From a virus: DNA of 24,822 bases. Both the position numbers and the translations under genes were made by a program. Each line of letters begins with the position of its first letter. Within the stretch, counting starts at the first letter, position 1. Of the stretch, positions 1,654 through 24,822 are shown in pieces. Under the pieces are notes generated by a model. It was given only the letters and a program-made list of their open reading frames with translations. It was not told the origin of the DNA and did no database searches. Location of the stretch: positions 1 through 24,822 of IMG/VR virus record IMGVR_UViG_3300044631_000443; one strand, written 5' to 3'.

Positions 1654-2973
1654 ATGCGCCCGACCGTGACCTTGTGCATGATCGTCAAGAACGAATCGCA
1701 CATCATCCTTGAATGCCTCAACTCTGTCTACAAGTACATCGACCATTGGGTCATCTGTGACACGGGTTCCACCGACAACACCAAGCAGATAATCACCGAC
1801 TTCTTCAAGGAGAAGGGGATACCAGGTGAACTCCACGACCATGAGTGGAAGGACTTCGGTCACAACCGAACCCTTGCCTTCAAGGCTGCTGAAGGCAAGG
1901 CTGACTATGCGTGGGTGATCGACGCGGACGACTACCTCGAGGGAGAACTCATACTTCCCGATGGAACGGACATGGATAGTTTCGCACTGCGCATCAAGCG
2001 CGGTTCCTTCTTCTGGTGGAGGAACCAGGTCTTCAAACTCGATGCCAAGTGGGAGTACAAGGGAGTCCTGCACGAATACGCGATATGCGAGAAAGCCAAT
2101 CCCAAGATCGGCAAACTCGAAGGCAACTACAACATCTGCGCAAGGACGATGGGTGGAGCCAGGAATGTAGGCATCGATCCCGTGGAGAAGTACAGCAGGG
2201 ATGCAGTCGTGCTGGAGGAAGCCATGAAGGCTGATCCGACCAACACCCGCAACCAGTTCTACCTCGCGCAGTCCTACTTCGACTCACAGCAATGGGAAAA
2301 GTCCGCAGAGGCTTACATGAAGCGCGTGGAGATGGGTGGTTGGGAAGAGGAGGTTTTCTACTCACTGTACCGCATTGCCATGATCGCAGCCATACAGAAC
2401 AAGCCGTTCGGGGAGATAAAGGAGAAGTTCCTCCTTGCATGGCGGTTCCGTCCCATCCGCGCAGAACCGATCTACCAGATCGCCAGGATGTACATGATGG
2501 TGCAGGAGCCAAGGCTTGCCTGGCTCCATGCCAAGATGGCAGCGGAGATGCCATATCCGCACTTCGACATCCTGTTCATCGACAACGACATCTACAGGTG
2601 GCAGATGGACGACATACTGGCTTCCACATCGTTCTATCTGCACCGATATGAGGAAGGGCTTGGTGTGGCAAAACGCCTTCTCAACAACCCCTTCTATCCC
2701 GACCCGGAGAAGCAGAGGATGGCTCAGAACATACAGGCATACGAGCAGAAGTTGGTTGAGTATGCTCCGATGCTTGCAGCGATGAAGCAGAAGGATGAGG
2801 AATACAGGCAGAACCCGTTCGGAACCGACTCCGTGACGATGAGCGTTACGGCACATCCTCCTGTGCCGCCGACTCCTGTCAAGGCAGAGGTTGCCGAGAC
2901 GGACGATCAGCGCAGGGAACGTCTCAAGAAGTTGCTGAACCGCAGCAAGGACAGGAAGAAGGCTAGCCGATGA
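1654..2973 (+). CDS. Family 2 glycosyltransferase with helical-repeat (TPR-like) C-terminus
   Basis: The N-terminal GT-A domain (residues about 1-130) has the family 2 signature: TLCMIVKNES at the nucleotide-binding strand, CDTGSTDNT, and the metal-binding DADD motif in WVIDADDYLEG. Residues about 180-380 form pairs of amphipathic helices resembling tetratricopeptide repeats (for example NQFYLAQSYFDSQQWEKSAE). The last 50 residues are Pro-rich then strongly basic. Family 2 enzymes move sugar from a nucleotide-sugar to an acceptor; the acceptor here is unknown. GT2-TPR fusions are frequent in T4-like phages. The start is ATG 1654 with AGGAG at 1640-1644. It overlaps the dUTPase by ATGA, so the two are probably co-translated. 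Confidence 0.9.
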   Translation: MRPTVTLCMIVKNESHIILECLNSVYKYIDHWVICDTGSTDNTKQIITDFFKEKGIPGELHDHEWKDFGHNRTLAFKAAEGKADYAWVIDADDYLEGELILPDGTDMDSFALRIKRGSFFWWRNQVFKLDAKWEYKGVLHEYAICEKANPKIGKLEGNYNICARTMGGARNVGIDPVEKYSRDAVVLEEAMKADPTNTRNQFYLAQSYFDSQQWEKSAEAYMKRVEMGGWEEEVFYSLYRIAMIAAIQNKPFGEIKEKFLLAWRFRPIRAEPIYQIARMYMMVQEPRLAWLHAKMAAEMPYPHFDILFIDNDIYRWQMDDILASTSFYLHRYEEGLGVAKRLLNNPFYPDPEKQRMAQNIQAYEQKLVEYAPMLAAMKQKDEEYRQNPFGTDSVTMSVTAHPPVPPTPVKAEVAETDDQRRERLKKLLNRSKDRKKASR

Positions 2974-6358: not shown

Positions 6359-7843
6359 ATGCCCAAGTTCTACACCAATGTCGCCATCCGTGGCAACAGG
6401 ATACTCCATCGCGGCTACGAGAACGGCAAGCCGTTCGCCGAGGAGGATGTGTACAAGCCCACCCTCTTCATCCTCAGCAAGAGGAAGAGCGAGTGGAAGT
6501 CCCTCGACGGCAGACCCGTCGAACCTATGGTGTTCGACTCCATCGATTCCTCCCGCGAGTTCATGGAGAAGTACTCGGATGTCTCCTCGTTCCCCATCTT
6601 CGGGAACACGGACTATGTCTATCAGTTCATAGGCGACGAGTACAAGGGAGAGGTTGACTACGACTTCAACCAGTTGCGCATCGCCTACATCGACATAGAG
6701 ACCGAGTCCGAGGCAGGATTCCCCGACATCGACACGGCAAACGAGCGGATCAATGTCATCACCATCATCTGCGGTTCCAAGAAGTACACATTTGCCCTTG
6801 GCAAGGTGGACAAGTCCAGGATGCCGCCCGATGTCCTCGTCAACCTCTACGACAACGAGGAGCAGATGCTGAGTGACTTCCTGCTGACATGGCAGAGCCT
6901 TGGGATCGACATCGTGACGGGGTGGAATGTCGAGTTCTTCGACATCCCGTACATCGTCCACAGGATCGGAAATCTCCTCGGGGAGCAGTATGCGCGGAAA
7001 CTCTCCCCTTGGGGGAAGTTGCGCAAGAGAAAGGTCGAGTTCCACGGCAAGGAGAGCGTCACCTACGAGATGGTCGGCATCAACACCATCGACTACTATC
7101 AACTCTACCGAAAGTTCACATTCGTCACGCGGGAGTCATACAAACTAGGAGACATCGCGCAGATCGAACTCGGGGAGACCAAGTTGGATCACTCCGAGCA
7201 CGACAACTTCTCGGAGTTCTATCGGAACGACTTCACCAAGTTCGTGGAGTACAACATACGGGACACCGTCCTTGTGCAGAAACTTGAGGCAAAGAAGCGG
7301 CTGCTTGAGCAAGCGGTAGCCCTTGCCTATTCAGCCAAGGTCAACATGCAGGATGTCTTCTCGCAGGTCAGGACATGGGAGCAGATCATCTACCATCACC
7401 TCAGCGAGAAGAGGATCGCGATCCCACAGAAGCGGAGGAACCGAAAGGACAAAGCGTTCAAGGGGGCATATGTCAAGCCACCTCAGGTCGGAATGCACAG
7501 ATGGGTGGTGTCCTTCGACCTTGATGCCCTCTATCCGATGCTCATCTGCCACTACAACCTGAGTCCCGACACCAAGACTTCCGATGGACTCAGGAGATCG
7601 ATCACGGCATCGTCCGTGATGAAGCAGTCAAACACCTACATGGTGGAAATCGAAAAGGCACGGCACAAGAACCTTTCCCTTGCTGCCAACGGAACGACAT
7701 ACCGCAAGGACAAGCAGGGATTCCTTCCCGAACTCATGGAGAAGATGTACAAGCAGCGCAAGGAGTACAAGAGGCTGATGCTTGAGACCAAGGCTAGCCT
7801 TCGTGATGTAGAAAATGAACTAAAAAAACGAGGTTTGATGTGA
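6359..7843 (+). CDS. 43: DNA polymerase gp43, N-terminal fragment (exonuclease, palm motif A, start of fingers)
   Basis: The replicative family B polymerase. Exo I is YIDIETE (Asp112, Glu114), Exo II GWNVEFFDIPY (Asn190-Asp195), Exo III YNIRD (Asp302). Palm motif A is SFDLDALYP (Asp387). The fingers begin at MYKQRKEYKRL, and the reading ends at residue 494 with a TGA (7841-7843), before motif B. Start ATG 6359, 7 nt after the methyltransferase stop, with only a weak ribosome-binding site. Codons from about 7801 change to an AT-richer style. The rest of the polymerase is downstream in two other frames (8569-8706 and 8703-9680). Such division is known for gp43 of some Aeromonas T4-like phages, whose two parts form one enzyme. 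Confidence 0.93.
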   Translation: MPKFYTNVAIRGNRILHRGYENGKPFAEEDVYKPTLFILSKRKSEWKSLDGRPVEPMVFDSIDSSREFMEKYSDVSSFPIFGNTDYVYQFIGDEYKGEVDYDFNQLRIAYIDIETESEAGFPDIDTANERINVITIICGSKKYTFALGKVDKSRMPPDVLVNLYDNEEQMLSDFLLTWQSLGIDIVTGWNVEFFDIPYIVHRIGNLLGEQYARKLSPWGKLRKRKVEFHGKESVTYEMVGINTIDYYQLYRKFTFVTRESYKLGDIAQIELGETKLDHSEHDNFSEFYRNDFTKFVEYNIRDTVLVQKLEAKKRLLEQAVALAYSAKVNMQDVFSQVRTWEQIIYHHLSEKRIAIPQKRRNRKDKAFKGAYVKPPQVGMHRWVVSFDLDALYPMLICHYNLSPDTKTSDGLRRSITASSVMKQSNTYMVEIEKARHKNLSLAANGTTYRKDKQGFLPELMEKMYKQRKEYKRLMLETKASLRDVENELKKRGLM

Positions 7844-8571
7844 TTTGAGTGCGATTGGTAATAGATATTTTCGGAAAGGGAGAACCCGAAAATGCATTAC
7901 CTCGTCTACAAGACCACCAACACGAAAACATTTAGGTATTACATAGGCGCACATAGAACGGACAACCTGAACGATTCCTATCTCGGTAGTGGAGTTGAGT
8001 TGGATAGGGACATTGAGGCTTATGGTGTTGATGCCTTTAGCCGAGAGATTCTAGAAGAATGCTCTACTGCGCATGAGATGTATGAACGGGAAAGAATCTT
8101 GATTGGAGACTTGTGGTCATCCGATCCTCTCTGCTACAATCTGAGACCTGGTGGAAAGGGCGGGTGGGATCATGTTGATAACTCTGGAGACAGGAATCCA
8201 ATGAGAAACCCAAGCAGTCTCGCTAAATGCGTAGCAGCGGGTAATAAAACTAGAGCCGCTAATCCAGAGAAATATGCTAGAGTTGCCATAGAAAATGCAA
8301 AACTGGCGACAGCCGCCATCAGAGGGAAGAAACGACCATCGCACTCGGAAGCCATGAAACAGATATCTCGGGATATATGGTCAATCCATAGAGATAAGAT
8401 GTTAGACTCACTCAACCAAAGTTACCTGGTAGTAAAGGAGGATGGAACATCTTTTGAGACAAATCGGCTGAATCAGTGGTGCAAGATACAGGGATTACCA
8501 TTCACTACTCTTTGGAAATCTGCTGTTTCGGGAAAGGTCATAAAGAAAGGCAAACTGAAAGGTTGGTCATG
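7841..8571 (+). mobile_element. 731-bp homing-endonuclease insertion splitting gene 43
   Basis: Gene 43 coding reads up to ATG 7838-7840 (Arg-Gly-Leu-Met) and resumes at 8572 (Ser-Asn-Tyr-Glu-Gln-Met). Both junctions carry ATGT (7838-7841 and 8569-8572). Removing 7841-8571 joins the two polymerase frames as RGLM-SNYEQMSNEDLL with no gap. The element consists of a 51-nt leader with a hairpin plus nearly the whole GIY-YIG gene. I see no group I intron core: there is no Q/R/S-like sequence, and the endonuclease gene fills the element and even reads 19 nt into the polymerase. An intron-less insertion is therefore the better reading. Exact ends could shift by a few bases because of the ATGT repeat. 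Confidence 0.7.
7867..7893 (+). promoter_or_regulatory. Hairpin masking the homing endonuclease ribosome-binding site and start codon
   Basis: ATTTTCGG (7867-7874) is perfectly complementary to CCGAAAAT (7886-7893). The 11-nt loop AAAGGGAGAAC carries the Shine-Dalgarno sequence AGGGAG, and the 3' arm includes the first two bases of the ATG at 7892. In RNA this would hide the start. T4 intron endonucleases such as I-TevI are known to be held back on long early transcripts by similar hairpins and expressed from a late promoter inside the hairpin. I find no exact TATAAATA late promoter here. Confidence 0.7.
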
Positions 8572-8590
8572 TCGAATTACGAGCAAATGA
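7892..8590 (+). CDS. GIY-YIG homing endonuclease
   Basis: Makes a site-specific break in uninterrupted gene 43 so that repair copies the element (homing). The nuclease domain (residues 1-90) has HYLVYKTTN then YYIGAHR (family GIY...YIG with Arg22), the conserved Glu at about 66 in the helix HEMYERERILIG, and CYNLRPGGKGG. A NUMOD3-like DNA-binding stretch follows (GKKRPSHSEAMK). The C-terminal module LNQWCKIQGLPFTTLW ... GKLKGWSC is typical of phage GIY-YIG enzymes. Its last residues (about Cys-Arg-Ile-Thr-Ser-Lys) come from polymerase DNA read out of frame. It is more AT-rich than the neighbours. No frame damage is seen, so it is probably active. Confidence 0.9.
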   Translation: MHYLVYKTTNTKTFRYYIGAHRTDNLNDSYLGSGVELDRDIEAYGVDAFSREILEECSTAHEMYERERILIGDLWSSDPLCYNLRPGGKGGWDHVDNSGDRNPMRNPSSLAKCVAAGNKTRAANPEKYARVAIENAKLATAAIRGKKRPSHSEAMKQISRDIWSIHRDKMLDSLNQSYLVVKEDGTSFETNRLNQWCKIQGLPFTTLWKSAVSGKVIKKGKLKGWSCRITSK

Positions 8591-8706
8591 GCAATGAGGA
8601 CTTGCTACTGCTCCGTAAGCGGTTGATTGATGATGCATCTTTGTATCACAATCGACAACTGGTTCGTAAGATCCAGTTGAACTCCGCTTACGGCGCAGTA
8701 GGTTAG
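8569..8706 (+). CDS. 43: gp43 middle fragment carrying polymerase motif B
   Basis: A 45-residue reading starting at ATG 8569, inside the end of the endonuclease gene, with its own AAAGG 6 nt upstream. It encodes the end of the fingers and motif B: NRQLVRKIQLNSAYGAVG, equivalent to T4 gp43 NRKLLINSLYGALG. It then stops at TAG (8704-8706), exactly where the family continues Gly-Asn-x-x-Phe-Arg-Tyr-Tyr. That continuation is present in the next frame from 8703. Base use is AT-richer than in the polymerase segments either side. As written the fragment ends too early to make a normal polymerase half. Either the genome has a true lesion, the ribosome changes frame, or the assembly has an error. Confidence 0.75.
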   Translation: MSNYEQMSNEDLLLLRKRLIDDASLYHNRQLVRKIQLNSAYGAVG

Positions 8707-8708
8707 GA
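8699..8708 (+). other. 5-nt frame scar in gene 43 (TAGG repeat)
   Basis: TAGG occurs at 8699-8702 and again at 8704-8707 with one base between. Deleting 8703-8707 (TTAGG) restores GCA-GTA-GGA-AAC-GAA, that is Ala-Val-Gly-Asn-Glu, the expected sequence after motif B. The extra five bases introduce a TAG stop and shift the frame. The site also coincides with the point where base use returns to the style of the rest of the polymerase. TAG closes only one other gene in the window (22404-22406). Confidence 0.65.
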
Positions 8709-9680
8709 AACGAATACTTCCGCTACTACGACGAGGAGATTGCCGAAGCCATCACTCTGTCGGGGCAACTTGCCGTGCAATGGGTCGAGCGCGACATCAA
8801 CAGGTTCATCAACAAGGCAATCGGGACGGACGGAGAGGACTATGTCATCGCAATCGACACCGACTCCGTCTACCTAGACATGGAGAAGGTCGTGGGGAAG
8901 ACCCTTCCCGGCTGCAAGGACGAGCGCAAGATAGCCTTGTTCCTAGACAAGTTGTCCAAGGAAGCCATACAGAATGTCATACGGAAGTCCTACGAGCGTC
9001 TGTCGGAGACGATGAACTCCTACGCCAACCACATGAGGATGAAGCGGGAGTGCATCGCATCCAAGGGGATATGGACGGGGAAGAAGCGGTACATGCTCAA
9101 TGTCAGGATAGGCGAGGAGGATGTCTACCTGCCGAAGCCAGACCTGAAGATCACGGGCATAGAGACGGTCAGGTCATCCACTCCAGAGGTCGTCAGGAAT
9201 GCCCTGAAAACAGCCATAACCATCGTGATGGACAAGGACGAGGAGGACATCCATCGGTTCGTGAAGACCTTCCGCGAGGAGTTTGCGGGGCTTCCTGCCA
9301 ACAAGGTGGCTTTCCCCCGAAGTTGCAACGGCATGAAGGACTACTTGGATGCTTCCAGCATCTATTCCAAGGGGACTCCAATCGCGACCAAGGCATCGCT
9401 CGTCTACAACTGGCATCTGCGCAAGATGCGCCTGAACACCATGTATCAGGAGATCCGCGAGGGAGACAAGATCAAGTTCGTCTACCTCAAGGAACCCAAT
9501 CCGCTTGGAGAGAAGGTGGTCGCATTCGTCGGAAGGATGCCCGTGGAGTTCGGACTCGACGGCTACATAGACCGCGACATGCAGTTCGTGAAGGCATTCG
9601 TGGAGCCTCTCAGGACGATCCTTGCCGTGATCGGATGGAACGAGGAGAAGAAGAGCAGCCTCGACGGATTGTTTGCATGA
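8703..9680 (+). CDS. 43: DNA polymerase gp43, C-terminal fragment (palm motif C and thumb)
   Basis: Homologous reading begins at 8703 (GNEYFRYYDEE), but there is no ATG there; the first usual start in frame is GTG 8775. It contains motif C AIDTDSVYLD with the catalytic aspartates, the WTGKKRYMLNV strand, KITGIETVRSSTP of the palm-thumb junction, and the thumb ending KKSSLDGLFA, comparable to the T4 gp43 C-terminus EKKASLFDMFDF. A start at 8775 would lose the YYDEE segment but keep motif C. Codon use is like that of 43A, not like the AT-rich middle. It needs motif B from the preceding fragment to be an active polymerase, either by assembly of separate chains or by a repaired frame. Confidence 0.88.
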   Translation, partial: LGNEYFRYYDEEIAEAITLSGQLAVQWVERDINRFINKAIGTDGEDYVIAIDTDSVYLDMEKVVGKTLPGCKDERKIALFLDKLSKEAIQNVIRKSYERLSETMNSYANHMRMKRECIASKGIWTGKKRYMLNVRIGEEDVYLPKPDLKITGIETVRSSTPEVVRNALKTAITIVMDKDEEDIHRFVKTFREEFAGLPANKVAFPRSCNGMKDYLDASSIYSKGTPIATKASLVYNWHLRKMRLNTMYQEIREGDKIKFVYLKEPNPLGEKVVAFVGRMPVEFGLDGYIDRDMQFVKAFVEPLRTILAVIGWNEEKKSSLDGLFA

Positions 9681-9756: not shown

Positions 9757-10059
9757 ATGAATGTGAAACTGGTCAGACTGATGACGGGCGAGATGATCCT
9801 CGCGGACACGACTGAGAAGGGCGATTCGATCACCCTGAAGAAGCCAGCATGGATCGCACAGGTCAAGCCAGGCGAGTTTGCCCTCGTCCCGTGGCTTCCC
9901 CTTGCCAAGGATGATTCGGTGACCATCGACCGCAGCAAGTTCATCTACTGCGTCGATCCTGAGACGGGCATCCTGAACGAATACAGCACGGCATTCGGAT
10001 CGGGTCTCGTCGTTCCTAACGGAGTCAAGCCTGTCAGCCTCAAGTTGAGCGGAGAGTGA
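9757..10059 (+). CDS. Small conserved phage protein with probable Sm-like (LSm) fold
   Basis: A 100-residue protein with alternating short strands: [45 protein letters not shown]. Many T4-like phages of aquatic bacteria carry a protein of this length and pattern between gp43 and uvsX, and the first two strands with the Gly-Glu turn resemble an LSm beta-barrel. RNA binding is a guess from the fold, not shown here. The start is ATG 9757 behind AAAGGAGA (9744-9751). A longer reading from 9733 would bypass that site and is unlikely. Its stop lies just before the uvsX start. Confidence 0.7.
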
Positions 10060-10064
10060 ACAAC

Positions 10065-11084
10065 ATGAACTTCCTGAAGCAGATCGTGAAGGAGTCTGGC
10101 AACAAGTTTGCCAGCGTTGTTGAGGATGGAATCGACGGAGCCGATGTCGCGGGATTCGTGGACACTGGTTCCTATGCTTTCAATGCGCTACTTTCAGGAT
10201 CCCTTTATGGAGGAGTGGCAGACAACAAGATCATTGCCCTTGCGGGCGAGTCTGCCACGGGAAAGACCTACTTCACCCTAGGGATCGTCGCGCAGTTCCT
10301 CAAGGACAATCCCGAGGGAATGGTACTCTACTTCGACTCTGAGCAAGCGGTGACATCCGACATGTTCAAGGGAAGGGGAGTGGACTCGCAGAGGGTGGCT
10401 GTGTTCCCCGTTGCCACCATTGAGGAGTTCAAGACGCAGTGCGTGAACATCGTTGACAAGGTTCTTGAGATGGACGAGAGCGACAGGAAGCCGATGATGA
10501 TCGTCCTCGACTCGCTAGGGATGTTGTCCACCGAGAAGGAAGTCAACGACTCAGCCGAAGGCAAGAATGTCCGCGACATGACTAGGGCGCAGGGGGTCAA
10601 GGCTACATTCCGCGTCCTGACAATGAAGTTGGGCAAGGCAAGGATCCCCCTTGTGATGACCAACCACACCTACGATGTCGTGGGTGCGTATGTCCCCACC
10701 AAGGAGATGGGTGGCGGAAGCGGTCTGAAGTATGCCGCATCCACCATCGTCTACCTCTCCAAGAAGAAGGAGAAGAACGCGGACGGGGATGTGATCGGCA
10801 GCATCATCCATTGCAAGTTGTACAAGTCTAGGCTCACCAAGGAGAACCAGCAGGTCGATGTGCAGTTGAACTACGAGACTGGTCTGAACCGCTACTACGG
10901 GCTGACCGACATCGCGATCAACCACGGCATCTTCAAGAAGGTCTCAACAAGGATCGAACTTCCCGATGGCAAGACTGCCTTTGAGAAGAACATCAACGAG
11001 AACCCAGAGAAGTACTTCACCGAGGATGTGATGATGCGGCTTGAGGAAGCAGTTGCCAAGGAGTTCAAGTATGGAACGGCATAA
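10065..11084 (+). CDS. uvsX: UvsX RecA-like recombinase
   Basis: Forms filaments on single-stranded DNA and carries out strand exchange for recombination-dependent replication and repair. Walker A is GESATGKT (residues 61-68), followed by LYFDSEQAV with the catalytic Glu93. Walker B is MMIVLDSLG (Asp149). DNA-loop regions lie around the Met-Gly-Gly-Gly-Ser-Gly stretch. 339 residues, near T4 UvsX (391) with a shorter N-terminus. I choose ATG 10065 because GGAGAG (10051-10056) sits 8 nt upstream. A GTG at 10056 is possible but would lack a ribosome-binding site. It overlaps the next gene by 14 nt. Confidence 0.95.
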
Positions 11085-11748
11085 GTTGTGCATCATCGTT
11101 CCTTTCAGGGACAGGGATGCGCACCTGAAGGAGTTCGTTCCTGCCATCAGGCAGTACCTTGCCGACAGCGGCATCGACCATGAGATCCTTGTGGTGGAGC
11201 AGACGCACGGAAAGCCGTTCAACCGCGCCAAGTTGCTCAACATCGGGTTCCTGGAGGCATCCAAGGATTGCGACTACTTCGTCATGCACGATGTGGACAT
11301 GATTCCCTTCAGGAACCTGGTCAACAACGGTCCCGACTACTCCTACAGGGATGAACCGACCCACCTTGCAAGCGCGGCAAGTCAGTTCAACTTCACCCTG
11401 CCTTATGGGGGATACTTCGGTGGAGTCACCTTGTTCCCGCGCAAGGCATTCGATCAGGTGAACGGCTACAGCAACGAGTACTGGGGATGGGGAGCCGAGG
11501 ACGACGACATGCTCTACCGCTGCCACTATGCGGGACTGAAGGCAGCGAGGATTGAGAACGGGTTCTTTCAGTCCCTCAACCACGACAGGAAGATAGACGA
11601 GCAGGACTACAGGAAGAACATAGACCGCGTCAAGGAGATGTGGGATCGGAAACTCGACTGGAAGAGCGAGGGTCTGAACTCCTGCAAGTACGAGGTGAAG
11701 GAACGAGCCGACATGGAAGGCTACAGGAAGGTCGTGGTGGAGATTTGA
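11071..11748 (+). CDS. Family 7 glycosyltransferase (beta-1,4-galactosyltransferase type)
   Basis: A GT-A enzyme that would use UDP-sugar and a metal ion. Hallmarks of the GT7 family are [11 protein letters not shown] (residues 50-60), the metal site MHDVDMIP (Asp74, Asp76), [21 protein letters not shown], and [10 protein letters not shown] (138-147), the last being the strongest signature. Donor and acceptor sugars cannot be read from the sequence; animal members transfer galactose or GalNAc. 225 residues from ATG 11071, with AAGGAG at 11058-11063. It is the first gene of the sugar island and is coupled to uvsX upstream and GT10 downstream. Confidence 0.9.
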
Positions 11749-12653
11749 GCCTGAAGGTTCTGTATGTCAACCCATGGGGTGGCTTCGATGCCGACTTCGC
11801 TAGGAACAGGTTCTTCCTGACCCATGCGCTCAAGGACATCGACCCCGACTGCGAGATATCCGTCCTTCCGCACGGATCGGTTCAGGACATAACGAGGTAC
11901 GACCTTGCCATATCCATCTACCATCCGTCTGTTTCGATGAAGTCCGTCAATGCCGCCAGGAAGATCGCCTTCACGGGAGAGAGTTACGATGTGGTCGCAA
12001 ACACTCCCGACTGCGATGCCTACATCGGGTTCGACCTCGAGGAAGACCATGACGGCAGGAACTACAGGTACTTCCGCTTCCCTCTCTATGCGGGATACCA
12101 CATGGACTACTGCGTGAGGCATGGCATCTCATCCTTTCAGGGTCTGCGGGAGAAGTACTCGAGGGACAAGATCGCGAAGGTGTCCGCAGTCGTGTCCAAC
12201 CCATCCAATGCCATCCGCAACCAGGTTCTGAACTGGTTGATTCAGAACTCCCATTGCGATTCTGGCGGGCGTGTGCTCAACACGGTCGGCAGCGTGGATG
12301 ACAAGTTGGACTTCACGGCAAACTATGCCGTGGGCATGGCATTCGAGAACCTACCAAAGAGGGCTTACATCACGGAGAAGATCTACGAGGTGTATGCGGC
12401 TGACTCCGTCCCATTCTACTTCGGCGCACCCGACATAGCCGAGGAGTTCAATCCCGACACATTCCTCTCGCTCGACATCTCGGGAGATCCTATGCCTTCC
12501 GTGGAGAGAGTCCTATCCGTCATGCGGGATCCCACGGAGCAGAAGAGGATGAAGTCCATCGACCCATGCGAGGGGTACAGGTCTGAGCGATACATACGGG
12601 GCGGCAGGAAGATTCTGTCTGACATCATTCGCAATGTTCTGGAGACCAAGTGA
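11745..12653 (+). CDS. Family 10 glycosyltransferase (alpha-fucosyltransferase type)
   Basis: A GT-B enzyme of the GT10 family, which normally moves fucose from GDP-fucose. The C-terminal signature is clear: KVSAVVSNPSNAIR, then YAVGMAFENL, RAYITEKIYEVYAADSVPFYFGAPDIAEEFNP. The N-terminal half (VNPWGGF...) is divergent, as usual. The likely start is TTG 11745, overlapping the preceding TGA in TTGA and giving 302 residues; no ATG or GTG lies near. The protein start is therefore uncertain by a few residues. No GDP-fucose synthesis genes are seen in the window, so the donor would come from the host or be another sugar. Confidence 0.9.
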   Translation: MSLKVLYVNPWGGFDADFARNRFFLTHALKDIDPDCEISVLPHGSVQDITRYDLAISIYHPSVSMKSVNAARKIAFTGESYDVVANTPDCDAYIGFDLEEDHDGRNYRYFRFPLYAGYHMDYCVRHGISSFQGLREKYSRDKIAKVSAVVSNPSNAIRNQVLNWLIQNSHCDSGGRVLNTVGSVDDKLDFTANYAVGMAFENLPKRAYITEKIYEVYAADSVPFYFGAPDIAEEFNPDTFLSLDISGDPMPSVERVLSVMRDPTEQKRMKSIDPCEGYRSERYIRGGRKILSDIIRNVLETK

Positions 12654-13447
12654 AGAACCTCATATTGTCCACATCGTCGGGATACAACTGGGAGCAGATC
12701 AAGAAGTGGAATCTGTCCGCTGCCGCAACGGGGAACGAGGTATGCAACATACTGGTGAACCCCAGCGACGAACTGTGCAAAGACATCGACCAGAATGTTC
12801 CTGAGCATGGGTGGAGGGTATTGAGGTTCGATCCCCGTTCCCTGAACAAGCCTCCCCACAACCTACGGTTCCTGTTTCAGTACAAGTACCTGATGGAAAT
12901 CAAGGGCAAGCATCCATATGTCGTGGTCACCGACAGCAGGGATGTCTACTTCCACTCCGATCCCTTCCCCCGCATCAAGGAGATACTGGATGCAATGGGC
13001 AAGGACATCGTCTGTGGCAGCGAATGCATCGCATACAAGGACGAGCACTGGGGAAACGGGAACCTCATGGAGGGGTTCGGCTATGTCTACGACGATTTCT
13101 GCGGGAACGAGATCTGCAATGTCGGAGTCCTGTGCGGCAAGACGGAGGCTGTCGCGGAACTCTGCCTGATGATCTTCACCATGTGCCACCACAATCCCGC
13201 AAGCGTCTCCGACCAGTCATCCTTCAACATCCTCATGGGAACCGATTTCGGCAGGAAGCGCATAGCGGTTACCCGCCCTTCTGATGGCGTGATGGTGCAT
13301 CTCGGCACGGTAGGCGTGGACAAGTTCAGGGACAAGTTGACGGAGAAGCCTTCATGGAAGGACGGGGAGATCCCTTCGGTCGGAGGCAAGGTCATTCCGA
13401 TCATCCATCAGTACGACAGGGTGGACACAAGCAAGTGGGGGATTTGA
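12650..13447 (+). CDS. Putative GT-A-fold glycosyltransferase
   Basis: 265 residues from GTG 12650, overlapping the GT10 stop in GTGA. The sequence FLFQYKYL...YVVVTDSRDVYFHSDPF has the layout of a GT-A metal site (DxRD in a strand, followed by Phe, Asp and Pro). Later GNEICNVGVLCGK and SDQSSFNILM resemble the acceptor-side loops of nucleotide-diphospho-sugar transferases. I know similar phage and bacterial proteins annotated only as glycosyltransferase-like. Family, donor and acceptor are unassigned. Confidence 0.7.
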   Translation: MKNLILSTSSGYNWEQIKKWNLSAAATGNEVCNILVNPSDELCKDIDQNVPEHGWRVLRFDPRSLNKPPHNLRFLFQYKYLMEIKGKHPYVVVTDSRDVYFHSDPFPRIKEILDAMGKDIVCGSECIAYKDEHWGNGNLMEGFGYVYDDFCGNEICNVGVLCGKTEAVAELCLMIFTMCHHNPASVSDQSSFNILMGTDFGRKRIAVTRPSDGVMVHLGTVGVDKFRDKLTEKPSWKDGEIPSVGGKVIPIIHQYDRVDTSKWGI

Positions 13448-14265
13448 TGAGTGCTACCATAGTGACTGCGTTCTATGACATCGGTCGATCCGAGTGGGAG
13501 TCACCCATGTTCCGTAGATCGGTGAATGAATACATGGAAGCCTTCTCCAATCTTCTTCGCTTCGACTATCCGATGATAGTGTTCATCGATGCCCGTCATC
13601 ACGACCGTGTCATGTCGATGGTGGAATCTTCGGAGTTCAAGCACAACAAGACTATCATACCAATCGACGAGGATTGGATGAACCAAAACATATGGGTCTG
13701 GAGCAGACTTGGTCGAGAGCGTGAGATCATGCAATCCCAAGAATACCGATCTCTCATACCAAGAAGGATGGAGTTGCGCTATCCCGAGAATGTGAATCCC
13801 ATGTACACCATACTTACCCACTCAAAGGTGGATTTTCTCTGCCATGCCATAGAGAATGATGTGTCGGATTCGCGATTCTTCATGTGGGTTGACTTTGGTT
13901 ATCTCAGCAAAAAGGCGATGGCGGGGTTCGTTCCCCATCGACACATCGATTGTTCCAAGATGATTGACGGCAAAGTCATCCTATGCTGCCTGAACGGTGG
14001 ATTGAGCAGTCGGGATTTCGATGTTCTCTACACACTACAGGCAGCGCCGGAGAAAATGGCTGGTGGTGTGTTCGTCGGAGACAGGGACAGCCTGATCAAG
14101 TTCAGAGACATCAGCCACCGTTGTCTTCTCAGATACCAAGAACTGAATCTAGCAGATGACGAACAAGCAGTATGGCTGCAATGCCTGTTGCAGGATCCGT
14201 CTCTGTTCTCCGTGCATGTGTTTGATGGGTGGCATTGCAGTCTCAAGTACTTTACCAAGGAGTGA
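13447..14265 (+). CDS. HtrL/YibB-family protein
   Basis: The N-terminus MSATIVTAFYDIGRSEWESP...RSVNEYMEAFSNLLRFDYPMIVFID is the characteristic start of the HtrL/YibB family, whose bacterial members sit in lipopolysaccharide or surface-glycan loci and are thought to be glycosyltransferase-like. Further family-style segments are MYTILTHSKVDFL and MWVDFGY. 272 residues. The start ATG 13447 is in the TGATG overlap with the previous gene; a reading from 13354 is inside that gene and rejected. Base use (more A and T in third positions) differs from GT7 and GT10, suggesting a later arrival. Confidence 0.82.
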   Translation: MSATIVTAFYDIGRSEWESPMFRRSVNEYMEAFSNLLRFDYPMIVFIDARHHDRVMSMVESSEFKHNKTIIPIDEDWMNQNIWVWSRLGREREIMQSQEYRSLIPRRMELRYPENVNPMYTILTHSKVDFLCHAIENDVSDSRFFMWVDFGYLSKKAMAGFVPHRHIDCSKMIDGKVILCCLNGGLSSRDFDVLYTLQAAPEKMAGGVFVGDRDSLIKFRDISHRCLLRYQELNLADDEQAVWLQCLLQDPSLFSVHVFDGWHCSLKYFTKE

Positions 14266-14267
14266 AT

Positions 14268-14951
14268 GTGAAAACAGCCATATTGCTGGTGGGAAACCTT
14301 CGCACATGGGACATGTGCAGAGACAACTTCATCTCCGTCTTTGGTGAACATCGACCAGATGTCTTCGTCACCACCTACGACATGCAGTATGCGTACCATC
14401 CGTACATCAAGCAGTCTCTGAACTTCTATGAGGATCAAATGCTGACCAACGACTCTATCATGTCGAAGTTCGCAGGACTGAACCTAGTCGGGGTTAGGAT
14501 CGACGAGATATCGACTTATGTGGAAAGGAATGTCAAGCCGTTCATCTCCAATAGGTTTCCAAAGGATGCATTCCTAAGCCTTTCACAGTACTTCAAACTG
14601 CACGACGGTCTGAAGATGGTGCAGGATCACGAACAGGCGATTGGAGAGAAGTACGATGTCATAGTCAAGACACGCTTCGATGTCTTGCATGACAGGTATT
14701 CCGTCCCTCCCGTCGATAAAATACACATCGACGGTTCTGGGGCTGGTGTGTTCCCATGTGACTGGATCTTCGCTTGCAGCAGGGAAAATGCACTGAAGAT
14801 GGACTCCTTCATCGTCGAAGAGATGAAGGACATGAAGAACGAAACGAGCCTCGTGGATCTTCCGCACAAGTTGTTCCTGAATGGAATCGTGTCAACCAAG
14901 GCAGAACTTGTACCGATGCCTCTCATCAAGGGGATCGTGAGGGCTAGATGA
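14268..14951 (+). CDS. Putative glycosyltransferase (WavE-like)
   Basis: 227 residues from GTG 14268 with AAGGAG at 14257-14262; the earlier in-frame ATG at 14229 lies inside the upstream gene. The N-terminus AILLVGNLRTWDMC, then PDVFVTTYDMQ, and YDVIVKTRFDVLHD match the general pattern of surface-glycan transferases of the WavE type (His/Asn-Leu-Arg-Thr loop, Thr-Arg-x-Asp strand). The assignment is by motif layout only and the catalytic role is uncertain. Base use resembles the HtrL gene before it, so the two may have been acquired together. It ends overlapping the HAD gene by ATGA. Confidence 0.6.
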   Translation: MKTAILLVGNLRTWDMCRDNFISVFGEHRPDVFVTTYDMQYAYHPYIKQSLNFYEDQMLTNDSIMSKFAGLNLVGVRIDEISTYVERNVKPFISNRFPKDAFLSLSQYFKLHDGLKMVQDHEQAIGEKYDVIVKTRFDVLHDRYSVPPVDKIHIDGSGAGVFPCDWIFACSRENALKMDSFIVEEMKDMKNETSLVDLPHKLFLNGIVSTKAELVPMPLIKGIVRAR

Positions 14952-15562
14952 CCATAGAAGCGGTTCTCTTTGATCTGGACGGAGTGCTTGTCGATGCCTG
15001 TGATTGGCACTACGATGCCCTGAACGGGGCATTGGTCGAGGCAGGATACACGGCAATCGACCGCGAGTCTCATCTCTCCACATACAACGGACTTCCCACT
15101 CGGGTAAAGTTGCAGATGCTTGGCATTCCCGACGATGCAGCGTCCAGGATCAACGAGCAAAAGCAGAAGCACACCCTTGACATCATACGGAAGTCGGCTA
15201 AGATCATGCCTGAGAAGATCGAACTCCACAGGTATCTCAGGGAGCGGGGAATCAAGATAGCCTGTGTGACCAACTCCATAGAGGAGACGGCTAGGGAAAT
15301 GCTCACGGCAACGGGACAGATGGAACACATCGACCTGCTTGTGACCAACGAGATGGTGAAGAGGAACAAGCCTCATCCCGATTGCTACAACCTGGCGATT
15401 GCCGAACTTGGAGTGAATCCGATCTCGTGTCTCTGCGTGGAAGACTCCCCGAAGGGAATCATGGCAGCGGTCAACAGCATGGCAGGGCATCTTTGGGCTG
15501 TGACCGATCACACGAAGGTGACCCTTGATGTATACTTGAGGTTCATGGAGAACGAACTATGA
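14948..15562 (+). CDS. HAD-superfamily phosphatase or mutase (beta-phosphoglucomutase-like)
   Basis: Four HAD motifs are in order: VLFDLDGVLVD with the nucleophile Asp9 and Asp11, ACVTNS, the Lys in RNKPHPD, and CVEDSPKG. The helical cap domain lies at about residues 16-80, as in the beta-phosphoglucomutase and phosphoglycolate phosphatase subfamily. It would act on a small sugar phosphate; the substrate is unknown. 204 residues, a normal length. Its position next to a sugar-phosphate nucleotidyltransferase suggests both act on the same activated sugar. The start ATG overlaps the preceding TGA. Confidence 0.88.
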   Translation: MTIEAVLFDLDGVLVDACDWHYDALNGALVEAGYTAIDRESHLSTYNGLPTRVKLQMLGIPDDAASRINEQKQKHTLDIIRKSAKIMPEKIELHRYLRERGIKIACVTNSIEETAREMLTATGQMEHIDLLVTNEMVKRNKPHPDCYNLAIAELGVNPISCLCVEDSPKGIMAAVNSMAGHLWAVTDHTKVTLDVYLRFMENEL

Positions 15563-16290
15563 AGATTCTGATACCGATGGCAGGAGAGGGAAGCAGGTTC
15601 GCCAGCGCGGGATACACATTCCCCAAGCCCTTGATCGATGTCGAGGGCAAGCCGATGATCGAACGGGTGGTCGAGAACTTCTCCGACTATGCATCCGAGT
15701 TCATCTTCCTTGTCCGCAAGGAGCACCTGGAGAAGTATCCAGGCATGAGATCGACCCTCCACAGGATAACCAAGGGACGATTCCGAATCGTGGAGGTCGA
15801 TAGGCTCACGGAAGGTGCTGCTTGCACCGCGCTGCTTGCCGAGGAGTACATTGACCGAGACGAAGACCTGCTCATAGCCAACTCCGATCAGATACTGGAA
15901 TGCTCCATGGAGAACTTCGGCTACCTCAAGACACACTCTCCTGTGGATGGAATCGTCTTCTGCTTCAATGCCACCCACCCCAAGTGGTCTTTCGTGGAGA
16001 TTGGTGATTTTCCCGCAAGGTATGGGAGTGTGATTCGCGTGGCAGAGAAGGAACCCATCTCAGACATTGCCACCTGCGGTGTCTACTGGTATCGCAAGGG
16101 GTCGGACTTCGTGAAGGCAGCGAAGCAGATGGTCGGCAAGAACATCCGCGTCAACAACGAGTTCTACATCGCACCTGTCTACAACGAGTTGATCGGTGTC
16201 GGTGGAACGGTGATTCCCTTCTTCGTTGACGAGATGCATGGGATCGGCACACCTGAAGACCTGAATGCATACCTGAACAGGAACAGATGA
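15559..16290 (+). CDS. Sugar-phosphate nucleotidyltransferase
   Basis: Makes an NDP-sugar from NTP and sugar phosphate. The N-terminal signature is complete: ILIPMAGEGSRFASAGY, KPLIDVEGKPMIERVV. It is followed by the metal-site strand LLIANSDQIL, and later GVYWYRKGSDF and NNEFYIAPVYNELI. 243 residues correspond to the catalytic domain only; no left-handed beta-helix acyltransferase domain follows. It resembles the short nucleotidyltransferases of capsule and LPS loci. It overlaps HAD and GDPD-like genes by ATGA on both sides, so the three appear to be one translational unit. Confidence 0.9.
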   Translation: MKILIPMAGEGSRFASAGYTFPKPLIDVEGKPMIERVVENFSDYASEFIFLVRKEHLEKYPGMRSTLHRITKGRFRIVEVDRLTEGAACTALLAEEYIDRDEDLLIANSDQILECSMENFGYLKTHSPVDGIVFCFNATHPKWSFVEIGDFPARYGSVIRVAEKEPISDIATCGVYWYRKGSDFVKAAKQMVGKNIRVNNEFYIAPVYNELIGVGGTVIPFFVDEMHGIGTPEDLNAYLNRNR

Positions 16291-16736
16291 AGATCATATC
16301 CCACAGAGGCAACCTGACTGGCGCAAAGCCAGAGTGCGAGAACAATCCGACATACATCGATGCCGCCATCGCGGCAGGTTTCGATGTAGAGGTCGATGTG
16401 TGGTATGTCGATGGGCAGTTCTTCCTAGGACACGATGCACCGACCTACCTGGTGGAATCCACATGGATAGGCGACAGGACGAAGCGTCTTTGGTTCCACG
16501 CAAAGAACCACGATGCGCTCGTCGCCCTGAACTTCAGGTTTCACTCCACCAGGGTCTTCTGGCACGAAACCGACAGGATGACCTTTGTCAGCGACGGAAC
16601 GCTGTGGATGTATCCTGGCAACTACAGCCCGTATGGAATAACGGTGGAACTTGGCTCGGCTAGGGATATTCCTCCCGTTGCTGGAGTATGCACCGATCAC
16701 CCCGTGTCTTGGTCAATGAGTTTGAGAAAAGGATAA
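16287..16736 (+). CDS. Short GDPD/PI-PLC-like phosphodiesterase-family protein
   Basis: 149 residues. The N-terminus IISHRGNLTG...ENNPTYIDAAIAAGFDVEVDVW and LGHDAP carry the His-Arg, Glu-Asn, Glu/Asp and second His motifs of glycerophosphodiester phosphodiesterases. WFHAKNHDAL and FWHETDRMTFVSDG complete the barrel strands. It is much shorter than typical enzymes (230-300), but this compact form is known in phages and capsule loci beside nucleotidyltransferases. In this context it may handle a glycerol- or sugar-phosphodiester, which is inference. Starts in ATGA overlap with the nucleotidyltransferase. Confidence 0.75.
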   Translation: MKIISHRGNLTGAKPECENNPTYIDAAIAAGFDVEVDVWYVDGQFFLGHDAPTYLVESTWIGDRTKRLWFHAKNHDALVALNFRFHSTRVFWHETDRMTFVSDGTLWMYPGNYSPYGITVELGSARDIPPVAGVCTDHPVSWSMSLRKG

Positions 16737-16740
16737 CACC

Positions 16741-17295
16741 ATGTCAACGCTTTTGCCGCATGTATTGAAGAAGTACAAGAGAAACGATGTGTTCGTGGAG
16801 ACTGGCTCCTACAAAGGAAGCGGAATACAGGTAGCACTCGATGCTGGATACAAGAAGGTCATCAGCATAGAGATTCATTCTGGATACCACGAAATCTGCA
16901 AGCAGCGGTTTTCTTCCGAGATAGAGGCGGGAATCGTGGAACTGCATCTTGGGGACTGCCTGAACAAGTTGGAGGAGATAGTCCCGTTATTGCCGACACC
17001 AGCAACATTCTGGCTGGACGCCCATATAGATTGGGAGTGTGGTGTTTCTGGAAAGACTCCATCGCCTCTGATCTATGAACTAGGCATACTGCGCAATCTT
17101 TCGTCTGTACGAAACCACACCATCTTGATAGATGACATGCGGGTGTTCAGAACCAAGATCGGATGGGGAGTATACAATCCCGTTGGACAGAAGGAGATAG
17201 AGGATGCGATCAGAGAGATAAACTCCTCGTACATCATCTCATACGAACCAAATGCGGTTCAGGAAGATGATGTGCTTGCTGCGTATATCCCTTGA
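16741..17295 (+). CDS. SAM-dependent methyltransferase (class I-like)
   Basis: 184 residues. VFVETGSYKGSGIQVAL is the Gly-rich SAM loop and VISIEIHSGY the acidic end of strand 2. VELHLGDCLNKL corresponds to strand 4, TFWLDAHIDWE and HTILIDDMRVF to the later strands. Similar proteins occur beside glycosyltransferases in phages and bacterial surface-glycan clusters, so O-methylation of a sugar is a reasonable guess. The start is ATG 16741 with AAAAGGA at 16727-16733. Base use is AT-richer than in gene 41 that follows. Its TGA stop (17293-17295) lies within the -35 box of the next promoter. Confidence 0.75.
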   Translation: MSTLLPHVLKKYKRNDVFVETGSYKGSGIQVALDAGYKKVISIEIHSGYHEICKQRFSSEIEAGIVELHLGDCLNKLEEIVPLLPTPATFWLDAHIDWECGVSGKTPSPLIYELGILRNLSSVRNHTILIDDMRVFRTKIGWGVYNPVGQKEIEDAIREINSSYIISYEPNAVQEDDVLAAYIP

Positions 17296-17319
17296 CTTCC
17301 CTTGACCGTGCGGTATACT
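17292..17319 (+). promoter_or_regulatory. Sigma70-type promoter before gene 41
   Basis: TTGACT (17292-17297, 5 of 6) and TATACT (17314-17319, 5 of 6) are separated by 16 bases. It is the best promoter match I see in the window. The expected start of transcription is about 17325-17327, on top of the gene 41 ATG at 17327. No Shine-Dalgarno sequence stands before that ATG, so a transcript from here would be leaderless or nearly so. Confidence 0.6.
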
Positions 17320-17326
17320 CAACATC

Positions 17327-18724
17327 ATGCTCGAACACACCATCCTCCGCGAACTGACCCGCGACGAAGGGTACTACAGGAAAGTCCTTCCGTTCCTCAA
17401 GGAGGAGTACTTCGGGGACAAGGACACCAAGATCGTCTTCGGCATGATCTCGGAGTACCTTCAGAAGTACGACTCCAAGCCCACCAAGGGGGCGATGGAG
17501 ATCGTCCTAGACTCCAGGAAGAACATCGATCCTGAGACGATCAGGCAATGCAAGGAGACACTTGCATTGGTCTTCTCCGACGAGAAGCCTCCAGCGATGG
17601 ACTGGCTCGTCGAGCAGACGGAGAAGTTCTGCAAGGACAAGGCACTCTACAACGCCATCCTTGAGTCGATCCACATCATCGACGGGAAGTCCAAGGACAA
17701 GGATGTCGGCTCCCTTCCCAAGATGCTGTCGGACGCACTCGCGGTCTCCTTCGACACGAACATCGGTCACGACTACATCGAGGACTGCGGGAAGCGGTAC
17801 GAGTTCTACCACAGGACGGAGAACCGCATACCGTTCGACATAGAGCAGTTCAACACCATCACGGGGGGAGGGGTTCCACGGAAGAGCCTCAACATCCTGA
17901 TGGCAGGTCCAGGCGTGGGCAAGTCGATGTTCCTGTGCCACTTCGCGGCATCCTGCATGACGCAGAACCTCAATGTCCTCTACATCACATGCGAGATGTC
18001 GGAGGAGAGGATCGCGGAGAGGATCGATGCCAACCTCATGGACATCCCGATGGAGGATCTGAGGAAACTTCCAGCGGACATCTATGCCAAGAAGATGGGC
18101 AAGATCCGCAAGCAGTACACGGGAAGGCTGATCGTCAAGGAGTATCCGACATCGACTGCCAATGCCAACCACTTCAGGGCATTGCTGAACGACCTCAAGA
18201 CCAAGAAGGGGTTCGTTCCCGATGTGATATTCGTGGACTACCTCAACATCTGCGCCTCAGCCAGGATCAAGATGAGCGCATCCGTGAACTCCTACACCTA
18301 TGTCAAGGCAATAGCGGAGGAGATCCGCGCACTTGCGATGGAGTTCGATGTCCCGATCTTCTCTGCCACTCAGGTCAACCGCATCGGCTTCAACAGCACC
18401 GATGTCGGTCTTGAGAACACATCGGAGTCCTTCGGTCTTCCCGCGACTGCCGACCTGATGCTTGCCCTGATTGCCACGGAGCAACTTGAGGAGCAGGGGC
18501 AGATCATGGTCAAGCAGTTGAAGAACCGCTACAACGACATCTCCCGCAACAGGAAGTTCACGGTCGGCATCGACAGGTCGCGCATGAAGATACTTGATGT
18601 CGGCAGCGCGGTAGTGGGGGACGAGGGGTTCGGAAAGAAGGGTGAAGATCCCGTGAAGCCCAAGTTCTCCAAGAAGCAGGACATGGATGGAGAGGATAGA
18701 TACTCGGACTGGAGTTTCGACTGA
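17327..18724 (+). CDS. 41: Replicative DNA helicase gp41 (DnaB family)
   Basis: A hexameric 5'-3' helicase unwinding DNA ahead of gp43 and partnering with primase gp61. Alignment with T4 gp41 is visible along its length: EEYFGDKDTK at the N-terminus, SFDTNIGHDYIED, Walker A GPGVGKS (residues 194-200), YITCEMSEERIAERIDANLMDI, Walker B IFVDYLNIC (Asp304), NSYTYVKAIAEEIRALA and the SFGLPATADLMLA segment. 465 residues (T4: 475). ATG 17327 is the first start after the promoter, and the protein beginning MLEHTIL matches T4 MVEIIL, so the start is secure despite no ribosome-binding site. It ends overlapping the primase ATG by one base. Confidence 0.96.
   Translation: MLEHTILRELTRDEGYYRKVLPFLKEEYFGDKDTKIVFGMISEYLQKYDSKPTKGAMEIVLDSRKNIDPETIRQCKETLALVFSDEKPPAMDWLVEQTEKFCKDKALYNAILESIHIIDGKSKDKDVGSLPKMLSDALAVSFDTNIGHDYIEDCGKRYEFYHRTENRIPFDIEQFNTITGGGVPRKSLNILMAGPGVGKSMFLCHFAASCMTQNLNVLYITCEMSEERIAERIDANLMDIPMEDLRKLPADIYAKKMGKIRKQYTGRLIVKEYPTSTANANHFRALLNDLKTKKGFVPDVIFVDYLNICASARIKMSASVNSYTYVKAIAEEIRALAMEFDVPIFSATQVNRIGFNSTDVGLENTSESFGLPATADLMLALIATEQLEEQGQIMVKQLKNRYNDISRNRKFTVGIDRSRMKILDVGSAVVGDEGFGKKGEDPVKPKFSKKQDMDGEDRYSDWSFD

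Positions 18725-24291: not shown

Positions 24292-24822
<531 letters not shown>

Follow-up and report, generated by a model that had tools for sequence, protein, structure and literature searches.

Organisation of the island

We analysed a stretch of 24,822 nt from a T4-like phage known from environmental DNA (positions 1–24,822 of the IMG/VR virus record IMGVR_UViG_3300044631_000443; the whole stretch is referred to as the window). Nine open reading frames (ORFs) on the plus strand, at positions 11071–17295, fill the space between the gene of the recombinase uvsX (10056–11084, plus strand) and that of the helicase gp41 (17327–18724, plus strand). They constitute a sugar-modifying island, and a comparison with relatives showed that the nine genes are one version of a hypervariable glycan cassette, not a fixed unit. 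An earlier note on this DNA had described a tightly packed nine-gene sugar island that splits the replication gene block; ORF calls, protein families and predicted folds all agree with that description.

The 3' end of uvsX forms the left boundary and overlaps the first island gene by 14 nt. The junctions that follow either overlap (by 4, 4, 1, 4, 4 and 4 nt) or leave gaps of 2 nt and 4 nt between genes, and 31 nt remain ahead of gp41. All nine reading frames are intact. At the amino acid level, UvsX is 91–95% identical to that of most clade relatives, 84% to that of locus L028 and 62% to a RecA-like protein of HTVC008M noted as UvsX. On the right flank, gp41 is the gene that stands close after uvsX in relatives lacking the island; in HTVC008M the gene after uvsX is annotated as DNA primase-helicase. 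A 41.6 kb IMG/VR contig (3300044621_000408) is identical to the window at 21024 of 21026 compared bases, and a third contig (L003) at 4015 of 4015 bases from uvsX onward, so the arrangement of the island is no accident of a single record.

Predicted glycosyltransferases and decorating enzymes of the left part

Five of the nine genes match a Pfam family above its cut-off (GT7, GT10, HtrL_YibB, HAD_2 and NTP_transf_3), in accordance with the earlier assignments. The first gene (11071–11748, plus strand) encodes a homologue of GT7 β-1,4-galactosyltransferases. Its N- and C-domain models (PF13733, PF02709) score 84.1 and 77.3 bits against cut-offs of 23 and 27 (E 5e-24 and 1e-21), and mammalian B4GALT1 from the PDB aligns over nearly the full length (E 4e-43). 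The DVD and WGWGxEDDD motifs, which we presume to have the role they have in other GT7 enzymes, are retained. The second gene (11745–12653, plus strand, with an assumed TTG start) is a homologue of GT10 α-1,3-fucosyltransferases (PF00852, 34.5 bits against a cut-off of 23.9, E 2e-8). The N-terminal FucT_N model stays under its cut-off (20 against 27.2 bits), and the Helicobacter pylori FucT structure (2nzw) aligns across part of the C-terminal domain with an E-value of 2e-16. We regard the protein as a predicted α-1,3-fucosyltransferase; fucose transfer is a prediction from homology. The proposed pairing of a galactose-type and a fucose-type transferase with genes for sugar-phosphate activation is thus supported by B4GALT1 and FucT homology.

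ORF3 (12650–13447, plus strand) belongs to no sequence family. Its AlphaFold2 model, with a predicted local distance difference test score (pLDDT) of 91 and a predicted template modelling score (pTM) of 0.91, confidently predicts a GT-A glycosyltransferase fold. Foldseek matched it to the α-1,3-galactosyltransferase 1g8o (E 6e-10). After superposition with VIA-align, the best match was the collagen glucosyltransferase domain of LH3 (6wfv, Z 17.9, root-mean-square deviation 3.1, 201 residues), followed by mimivirus R699 (Z 16.9) and the GT6 enzyme 2jck (Z 16.8); the lead of LH3 over GT6 is therefore just about one Z unit. The next gene (13447–14265, plus strand) belongs to the HtrL/YibB family (PF09612, E 1e-32, 113.9 bits against a cut-off of 24.1). 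It falls short of the NCBIfam equivalog model TIGR02192 (121.1 against 264.9 bits), and hence is not classed as a true YibB orthologue. In two loci (L107:12494–14074 and L116:14030–15610), the ORF3-like and HtrL-like families match a single ORF, an apparent fusion of two genes that are neighbours in the window.

ORF5 (14268–14951, plus strand) matches only DUF7796, below the Pfam cut-off, and phrog_13607. The earlier label 'WavE-like' is therefore unsupported: Pfam WavE (PF07507) gives no match, although the model does match locus L207. The AlphaFold2 model of ORF5 (pLDDT 86, pTM 0.87) also has a predicted GT-A fold. Foldseek returned GT6 chains (E 1.5e-5, TM below 0.5), and the best VIA-align score of 12.0 was a tie among several GT-A families, a weaker superposition than that of ORF3 (Z 12.0 compared with 17.9). 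The VIA-align lists re-score the rows returned by Foldseek, and families not listed are not thereby excluded. Profiles of ORF3 and ORF5 gave zero matches to PDB sequences at E 1. The structure predictions proposed as a check thus found glycosyltransferase folds in both proteins, in line with the GT-A-like enzyme that the earlier note had seen in ORF3.

Predicted sugar activation module of the right part

The right part of the island starts with a HAD hydrolase of the β-phosphoglucomutase-like subfamily (14948–15562, plus strand; HAD_2, E 3e-30). Against the β-phosphoglucomutase model TIGR02009 it reaches an E-value of 2e-28 but only 99.7 bits, under the cut-off of 153.35. It is followed by a sugar-phosphate nucleotidyltransferase, in the following NTP (15559–16290, plus strand; NTP_transf_3 E 2e-7, phrog_3980 8e-62, PDB 4evw E 5e-25). 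In many relatives HAD and NTP are fused to a single protein.

ORF8 (16287–16736, plus strand) had been called GDPD-like, and this holds for a small phosphodiesterase of that kind: the HRG, EN, ExD and GHD motifs are invariant across 26 aligned sequences including that of the window, and the family profile matches the solved GDPD 7e0v with an E-value of 8e-4 over 52 positions. The residues HR, E, ExD and HD, which we take to be the catalytic ones of GDPD enzymes, are all kept. The Pfam model of GDPD (PF03009) is silent, with none of the 26 members matching at E 0.1 and nothing useful elsewhere in Pfam. ORF9 (16741–17295, plus strand) is a probable methyltransferase dependent on S-adenosylmethionine, as judged from its closest phage relative, an S-SCSM1 protein annotated as methyltransferase (45% identity). 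Pfam, PHROGs and NCBIfam gave no match to ORF9.

NTP and ORF8 travel together. Among 21 records selected via uvsX, five have a strong NTP match and exactly those five have ORF8; a sixth (G016) has a weak NTP match only. In all 50 records searched, NTP occurs in 35 and ORF8 in 30, every one of them with NTP.

The module is not confined to phages. We collected 61 bacterial and archaeal loci (L175–L235) via NTP. In 49 of them NTP has a HAD relative no more than 2 kb away (a weak, distant match in L230 is not counted), and 44 have one of three GDPD-like families in the fetched flanks (21, 16 and 7 loci). These families are mutually exclusive, with no locus carrying two. Only the 7-member family has a representative that Pfam confirms as GDPD. 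No Pfam model matches the 16-member family, which was assigned by its HR-ExD-HD pattern, strict in 11 of 16 members. A WavE family, Pfam-checked for one representative, is found near NTP in 18 of the 61 loci, and a flippase-like family, below the Pfam cut-off, in 5. HAD-NTP, usually with a GDPD-like enzyme, is thus a common cellular module too, and given these HAD, GDPD-like and WavE neighbours the phage version resembles a module from apparent surface-polysaccharide regions. It is shared between phages and genomes labelled SAR11 (Pelagibacter), SAR86, Methylophilaceae and archaea.

Genes behind uvsX in relatives

Relatives were collected via uvsX (80 loci kept of 85 confirmed) and via NTP (80 kept of 125). 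Twenty-eight kept loci (L002–L029) have a uvsX at least 84% identical and sequence past it; L075 (96%) ends inside uvsX and was set aside. The island type was judged on the first 2.2 kb after uvsX, or less where the contig ends. L002 and L003 represent the virus of the window itself, and L004/L005/L029 as well as L023/L024 have almost the same uvsX; the counts of types are therefore not independent.

Glycan-type genes follow uvsX in all 28 loci. In 14 of them (type A), GT7 comes first or stands behind an RmlD or RmlA-like gene. The other 14 (type B) have an unrelated first gene, followed in 12 by GMER-like and/or GMD genes; the exceptions are L011, with other sugar genes, and L021, whose contig ends too early. 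The labels GMER-like and RmlA-like were assigned by eye, the Pfam matches being Epimerase and NTP_transferase only. In all 12 clade loci that reach gp41, the spacing between uvsX and gp41 is 6.2–13.1 kb (6.2 in the window, then 7.1, 9.1, 10.0, 10.4, 10.5, 10.7, 11.0, 12.0, 12.2, 12.7 and 13.1 kb); in five further clade records (L012, L019, L020, L026, L028) gp41 was not found. In most relatives with a uvsX identity of 66–81%, and in one with 53%, gp41 follows uvsX after 0–1.5 kb. Exceptions are L096 (74%), with a 10.4 kb island containing GT7, HAD, NTP and ORF8, and a set with about 69% identity (L058–L064, L066, L072), in which 12–17 kb separate uvsX and gp41 in eight of nine loci, the ninth being without a gp41 found. 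Sugar-type genes were seen in this set in G014, read as a whole, and, partly by eye, in L058, L062 and L072; G014 carries a relative of the type B first gene.

Two sub-blocks of the window's island recur. The order GT7-GT10-ORF3 is present in 10 of the 14 type A loci, the copies of the window included, with ORF3 only 27% identical in L025. GT7 is followed by other genes in L007 and L026, and the contigs of L005 and L013 end too early. Relatives of HAD-NTP-ORF8 occur in 6 of the 12 complete islands (the window, L004, L011, L015 with a diverged NTP, L017 and L029); L009 and L024 have NTP and ORF8 with no HAD match. The other genes vary. We ran Pfam on 40 further island genes, of which 27 were matched, some below cut-off, and 13 were not. 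The alternatives named in this way are RmlD, C- and FkbM-type methyltransferases, NAD epimerases, UDP-galactopyranose mutase, GMD, GT15 and GT2, as well as DegT, nucleotidyltransferases, a kinase-aldolase, PfkB, a cytidylyltransferase and weak matches to GT1, GT11, GT25 and GT47. A fixed nine-gene unit was therefore rejected. Scattering of the genes in relatives, named earlier as an outcome that would speak against a joint island, is seen in part: the order is kept inside the two blocks, and the rest is exchanged. The exact set of nine, which the earlier note did not know from any described T4-like phage, was met only in the near-identical contig of the window. In a search of 50,697 phage records with seven island proteins (all except ORF5 and HAD), five match 4 to 20 records each; GT7 and ORF3 match none at E 1e-5.

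Replacement of whole cassettes

Nearly identical phages carry different cassettes. Across the 4051 bp that end with the 3' end of uvsX, the DNA of L018 (type A) and L020 (type B) is 96.4% identical; they share nothing in the 2.5 kb of L018 that follow. Likewise, the uvsX DNA of the type A loci L015, L017 and L007 is 97–98% identical to that of L024 (type B), and the share of common downstream DNA rounds to 0%. Between L024 and L017, 91% identity up to uvsX is followed by an unmatched island and then by 34 identical bp just before gp41. In L007 and L026, uvsX is 83% identical and 97% of the 4 kb island stretch of L026 is shared, at 70% identity.

When the A/B label is mapped onto a tree built from uvsX of the 28 loci, at least five changes are needed, and branches with strong support force three of these. 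The sister loci L021 (B) and L025 (A) have a support of 100/97. After shuffling of the labels, the mean number of changes was 9.4, and values as low as the observed one appeared in 1–2 of 500 shuffles. The island types are therefore clustered, yet have been replaced repeatedly. At four-fold degenerate sites, the identity between the window and three relatives is 0.53–0.60 in uvsX and 0.16–0.46 in the other compared genes, which fits recombination through uvsX. We consider this a clean natural case of the exchange of whole glycan gene cassettes with sharp boundaries in T4-like phages.

Boundaries and the gp41 promoter-like site

The right boundary is marked by a σ70-type promoter-like site, TTGACT-N16-TATACT (17292–17319, plus strand), whose −10 element ends 7 nt before the ATG of gp41. 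With both strands scanned, the pattern has this single match in the window; the site was also picked up in a consensus scan. A site of the type TTGA/TATA(C/A)T, with the −10 element ending 6–7 nt before the ATG, is present in six of seven loci with an island between uvsX and gp41 and in none of 13 loci without one. The seventh island locus, L239, has a similar but unmatched sequence; a match in L080 overlaps the start codon and was not counted. Promoter and terminator scans of the window were overall not above shuffled sequences, and conservation supports the gp41 site alone. The site would insulate gp41 from whatever precedes it. Since the first island gene overlaps the end of uvsX by 14 nt and almost all later ones overlap too, we infer that read-through from uvsX is likely.

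The geometry of the gp41 site (17292–17327) places the likely transcription start at the ATG or directly beside it, which suggests that the mRNA is leaderless. In L091, a similar spacing precedes an epimerase gene, at 11761.

An alternative site for the island

A second position at which sugar islands occur (site 2) lies near the left end of the window, between a conserved ORF (1198–1614, plus strand; homologue in 17 of 20 records) and a gene for a GT2 glycosyltransferase with TPR-like repeats (GT2-TPR; 1654–2973, plus strand; PF00535, E 4e-14). GT2-TPR matches the β-1,4-glycosyltransferase family phrog_13126 (1e-21) and, in part, the SunS-type model TIGR04195 (2e-11, far under its cut-off); TPR models remain below cut-off. 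It is a possible companion enzyme of the island. Site 2 is empty in the window. In G006, G008 and G020 a sugar island of 11–14 kb lies between the homologues of the two genes. The gap at site 2 measures 10–14 kb in G006, G007, G008, G015, G020, G021, G022, G023 and G050 and about 20–40 bp in G001 (the virus of the window), G004, G005 and G017.

In all nine scorable records exactly one of the two sites is filled, and in none both or neither: G001, G004 and G005 have the island at uvsX-gp41 only, and G006, G007, G008, G015, G020 and G021 at GT2-TPR only. For G007 and G021, site 2 was called filled from the distance together with an epimerase beside GT2-TPR, and for G015 also from NTP and ORF8 inside. 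As G020 and G021 are near copies and the records are related, the number of independent events is smaller than nine. The 1.5 kb between uvsX and gp41 in G020 and G021 hold homing- or intein-like genes as judged by eye, and no sugar genes. The score leaves aside G002, G003 and G016, in which site 2 was not found; G017, where site 2 is empty but uvsX stands at the end of the contig; G009, G010, G013 and G014, which are without a neighbouring GT2-TPR; and G022, G023 and G050, with a site 2 of 10–11 kb and site 1 unseen. GT2-TPR itself was rejected as a marker of the uvsX-gp41 island, for it occurs in records with and without one; it marks site 2.

Comparison with known systems

Bacterial O-antigen and capsule loci have fixed flanks and swappable genes for glycosyltransferases and sugar synthesis. 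The island shares this layout, and the HAD-NTP-phosphodiesterase module is common to cellular loci. It differs in being located in a phage, in having the initiating transferase family PF02397 in none of 16 records and in that no flippase or polymerase family was named among the island genes scanned. Among phages, the Synechococcus phages S-CAM9, DSL-LC03, B23, Bellamy and S-SM2 have relatives of NTP and ORF8, together with HAD and ORF5-family genes, among glycosyltransferases. Their clusters differ from the island by another place in the genome (near tRNA, high-light or other genes) and by other sets of glycosyltransferases; GT7 and ORF3 have no match in them by tblastn at E 1e-5, and S-SM2 shows a weak GT7 profile match (E 1e-4).

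The mycobacteriophages Che8, Corndog and Myrna (PMC12363180) likewise encode glycosyltransferases that are used during infection. They differ in that the part of this source drawn on here describes single transferases acting on a capsid or tail-tube protein and no swappable multi-gene cassette. The closest parallel is the hypervariable 'host recognition cluster' of pelagi- and cyanomyophages, which in the passages of PMC7029224 used here lies between VrlC and gp14, includes tail fibres and holds many lipopolysaccharide-type glycosyltransferases. Like the island, this cluster is found in aquatic T4-like phages, is large, non-syntenic and rich in glycosyltransferases and varies among close relatives. 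Unlike the cluster as these passages describe it, the island lies between uvsX and gp41, contains no recognisable fibre gene in the window and alternates as a whole cassette with sharp boundaries. Variable glycosyltransferase islands in aquatic T4-like phages are thus already known from these passages and from annotated cyanophages. In the open-access literature we found no description of a glycan island at uvsX-gp41, nor of whole-cassette alternation, the gp41 promoter-like site or placement at one of two sites, which is not proof of absence.

Proposed function and acceptor

Based on gene content, predicted folds, cassette replacement, the boundaries and the conserved promoter-like site we propose the following explanation, in which we place about even confidence: the island is a hypervariable, exchangeable glycan cassette that is read through from uvsX and probably extends a surface glycan of the host. 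The organisation of the cassette would resemble that of O-antigen or capsule loci in bacteria. Sugars would be added by the left block, with GT7 providing a galactose, GT10 a fucose-type branch and ORF3 another hexose; the right block (HAD, NTP and the GDPD-like ORF8) would make an activated sugar. HtrL and the methyltransferase may act as variant-specific decorators, and ORF5 as a fast-diverging glycosyltransferase. With the island genes read through from uvsX and gp41 on its own promoter, the block could be exchanged without harm to the replication genes. Homologous recombination would bring about the exchange, uvsX and the promoter region of gp41 serving as shared arms.

The absence of PF02397, the one initiating transferase family searched, from all 16 records suggests that the cassette is probably unable to start a lipid-linked chain alone and extends an existing acceptor. 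We rank the host surface glycan as the most likely acceptor, the virion next and DNA least. The product would most likely extend a glycan already made by the infected host and thereby alter binding by competing phages. This choice is favoured by the cellular company of the HAD-NTP module and by a proposal, in the part of PMC7029224 considered, that pelagimyophages modify the O-chain of their host against coinfection.

Several points weigh against this explanation. The low synonymous divergence of uvsX could stem from codon constraint instead of recombination. HAD-NTP-ORF8 has no match anywhere in the records of L007 and L025, nor was one found within the first 10 kb of L016 and L027; with the module missing from some cassettes, there is no one pathway that all of them share. 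Most records are fragments, so that absences carry little weight. Finally, fibre-like genes are located close to the island, and both GT2-TPR and ORF3 resemble protein glycosyltransferases, which would equally fit glycosylation of the virion.

In that alternative, which we hold to be a serious though less probable rival, the cassette decorates a structural protein such as the collagen-like proteins, with GT2-TPR or ORF3 attaching a sugar to the protein. Glycosylation of capsid and tail-tube proteins by phage-encoded glycosyltransferases is described for mycobacteriophages by Freeman 2023, as cited in PMC12619734 and PMC12363180. The partial SunS-type match of GT2-TPR and the top structural match of ORF3 to LH3, followed by mimivirus R699, point in the same direction, as do collagen-like genes that follow GT2-TPR at the end of the island in L083, L088, L090 and L093. 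The small lead of LH3 over GT6 reduces the weight of this match, and ORF3 was not seen in the type B cassettes examined. The fraction of GXT units in collagen-like tracts is similar with and without an island (184 of 609 units in island loci, 192 of 714 in others), which speaks against collagen threonine as the acceptor. Against glycosylation of the collagen hydroxylysine type, the 2OG-Fe(II) oxygenase family PF13640 was found in none of 21 records, by a model that matches just 2 of 14 control genomes; there is thus no lysyl-hydroxylase candidate from this one family among several.

The collagen-like tracts of the window (20658–22406 and 24295–24822) are of two kinds, one with many lysines at the Y position (GDK/GEK, by eye) and one of almost pure GXT.

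A more far-reaching version, which we think unlikely, would see a 'glycotype' locus: near-identical phages would swap glycan programmes via uvsX, one per genome at one of two sites, and the GT7/GT10/ORF3 type would make a Lewis-X-like Galβ1,4-(Fucα1,3) cap, placed by collagen-type glycosyltransferases on collagen-like fibres, giving interchangeable virion antigens.

It is distinctly unlikely that the island is a passive, hypervariable store, a place that tolerates insertions and collects genes of which only some matter in any one phage. The middle genes do differ among relatives, and the G+C content at third codon positions is uneven, with 0.56 in ORF9, 0.60 in HtrL and 0.65 in ORF5 and ORF8 against 0.76–0.82 in uvsX, GT7 and gp41, though the flanking thyX is also low (0.69). 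The conservation of block order over wide divergence, the nine intact and nearly all overlapping frames and the strict co-occurrence of ORF8 with strong NTP matches in the uvsX-selected records argue against mere storage.

T4 glucosylates its DNA. The earlier note had listed phage DNA as a possible acceptor, and the position among replication genes would lend itself to this. A corresponding protection against host restriction is nevertheless highly improbable. The thymidylate synthase/dCMP hydroxymethylase family PF00303 is present in 0 of 21 records, which are mainly fragments; those enzymes that were recognised resemble glycosyltransferases for proteins, lipids or oligosaccharides, and neither Pfam nor PHROGs reported a T4-type DNA glucosyltransferase. 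As phages with nearly the same uvsX differ in their cassette, the target of glycosyltransferase islands in aquatic phages (host coat, virion or DNA) is directly testable.

Flanking genes

Upstream of uvsX, the DNA polymerase gene (6359–9680) is split into an N-terminal part at 6359–7843 and the rest at about 8638–9674, with a frame change near 8700. In the relative L007 the polymerase is one ORF of 845 amino acids. Rfam models gave nothing in the window at E 0.5, so the gene is split without a recognised intron. Between the two parts, an ORF at 7892–8590 looks GIY-YIG-like by eye. The preceding DNA methyltransferase-like ORF (4207–6351, 714 amino acids) has an apparent intein-like insert, seen by eye in the translation.

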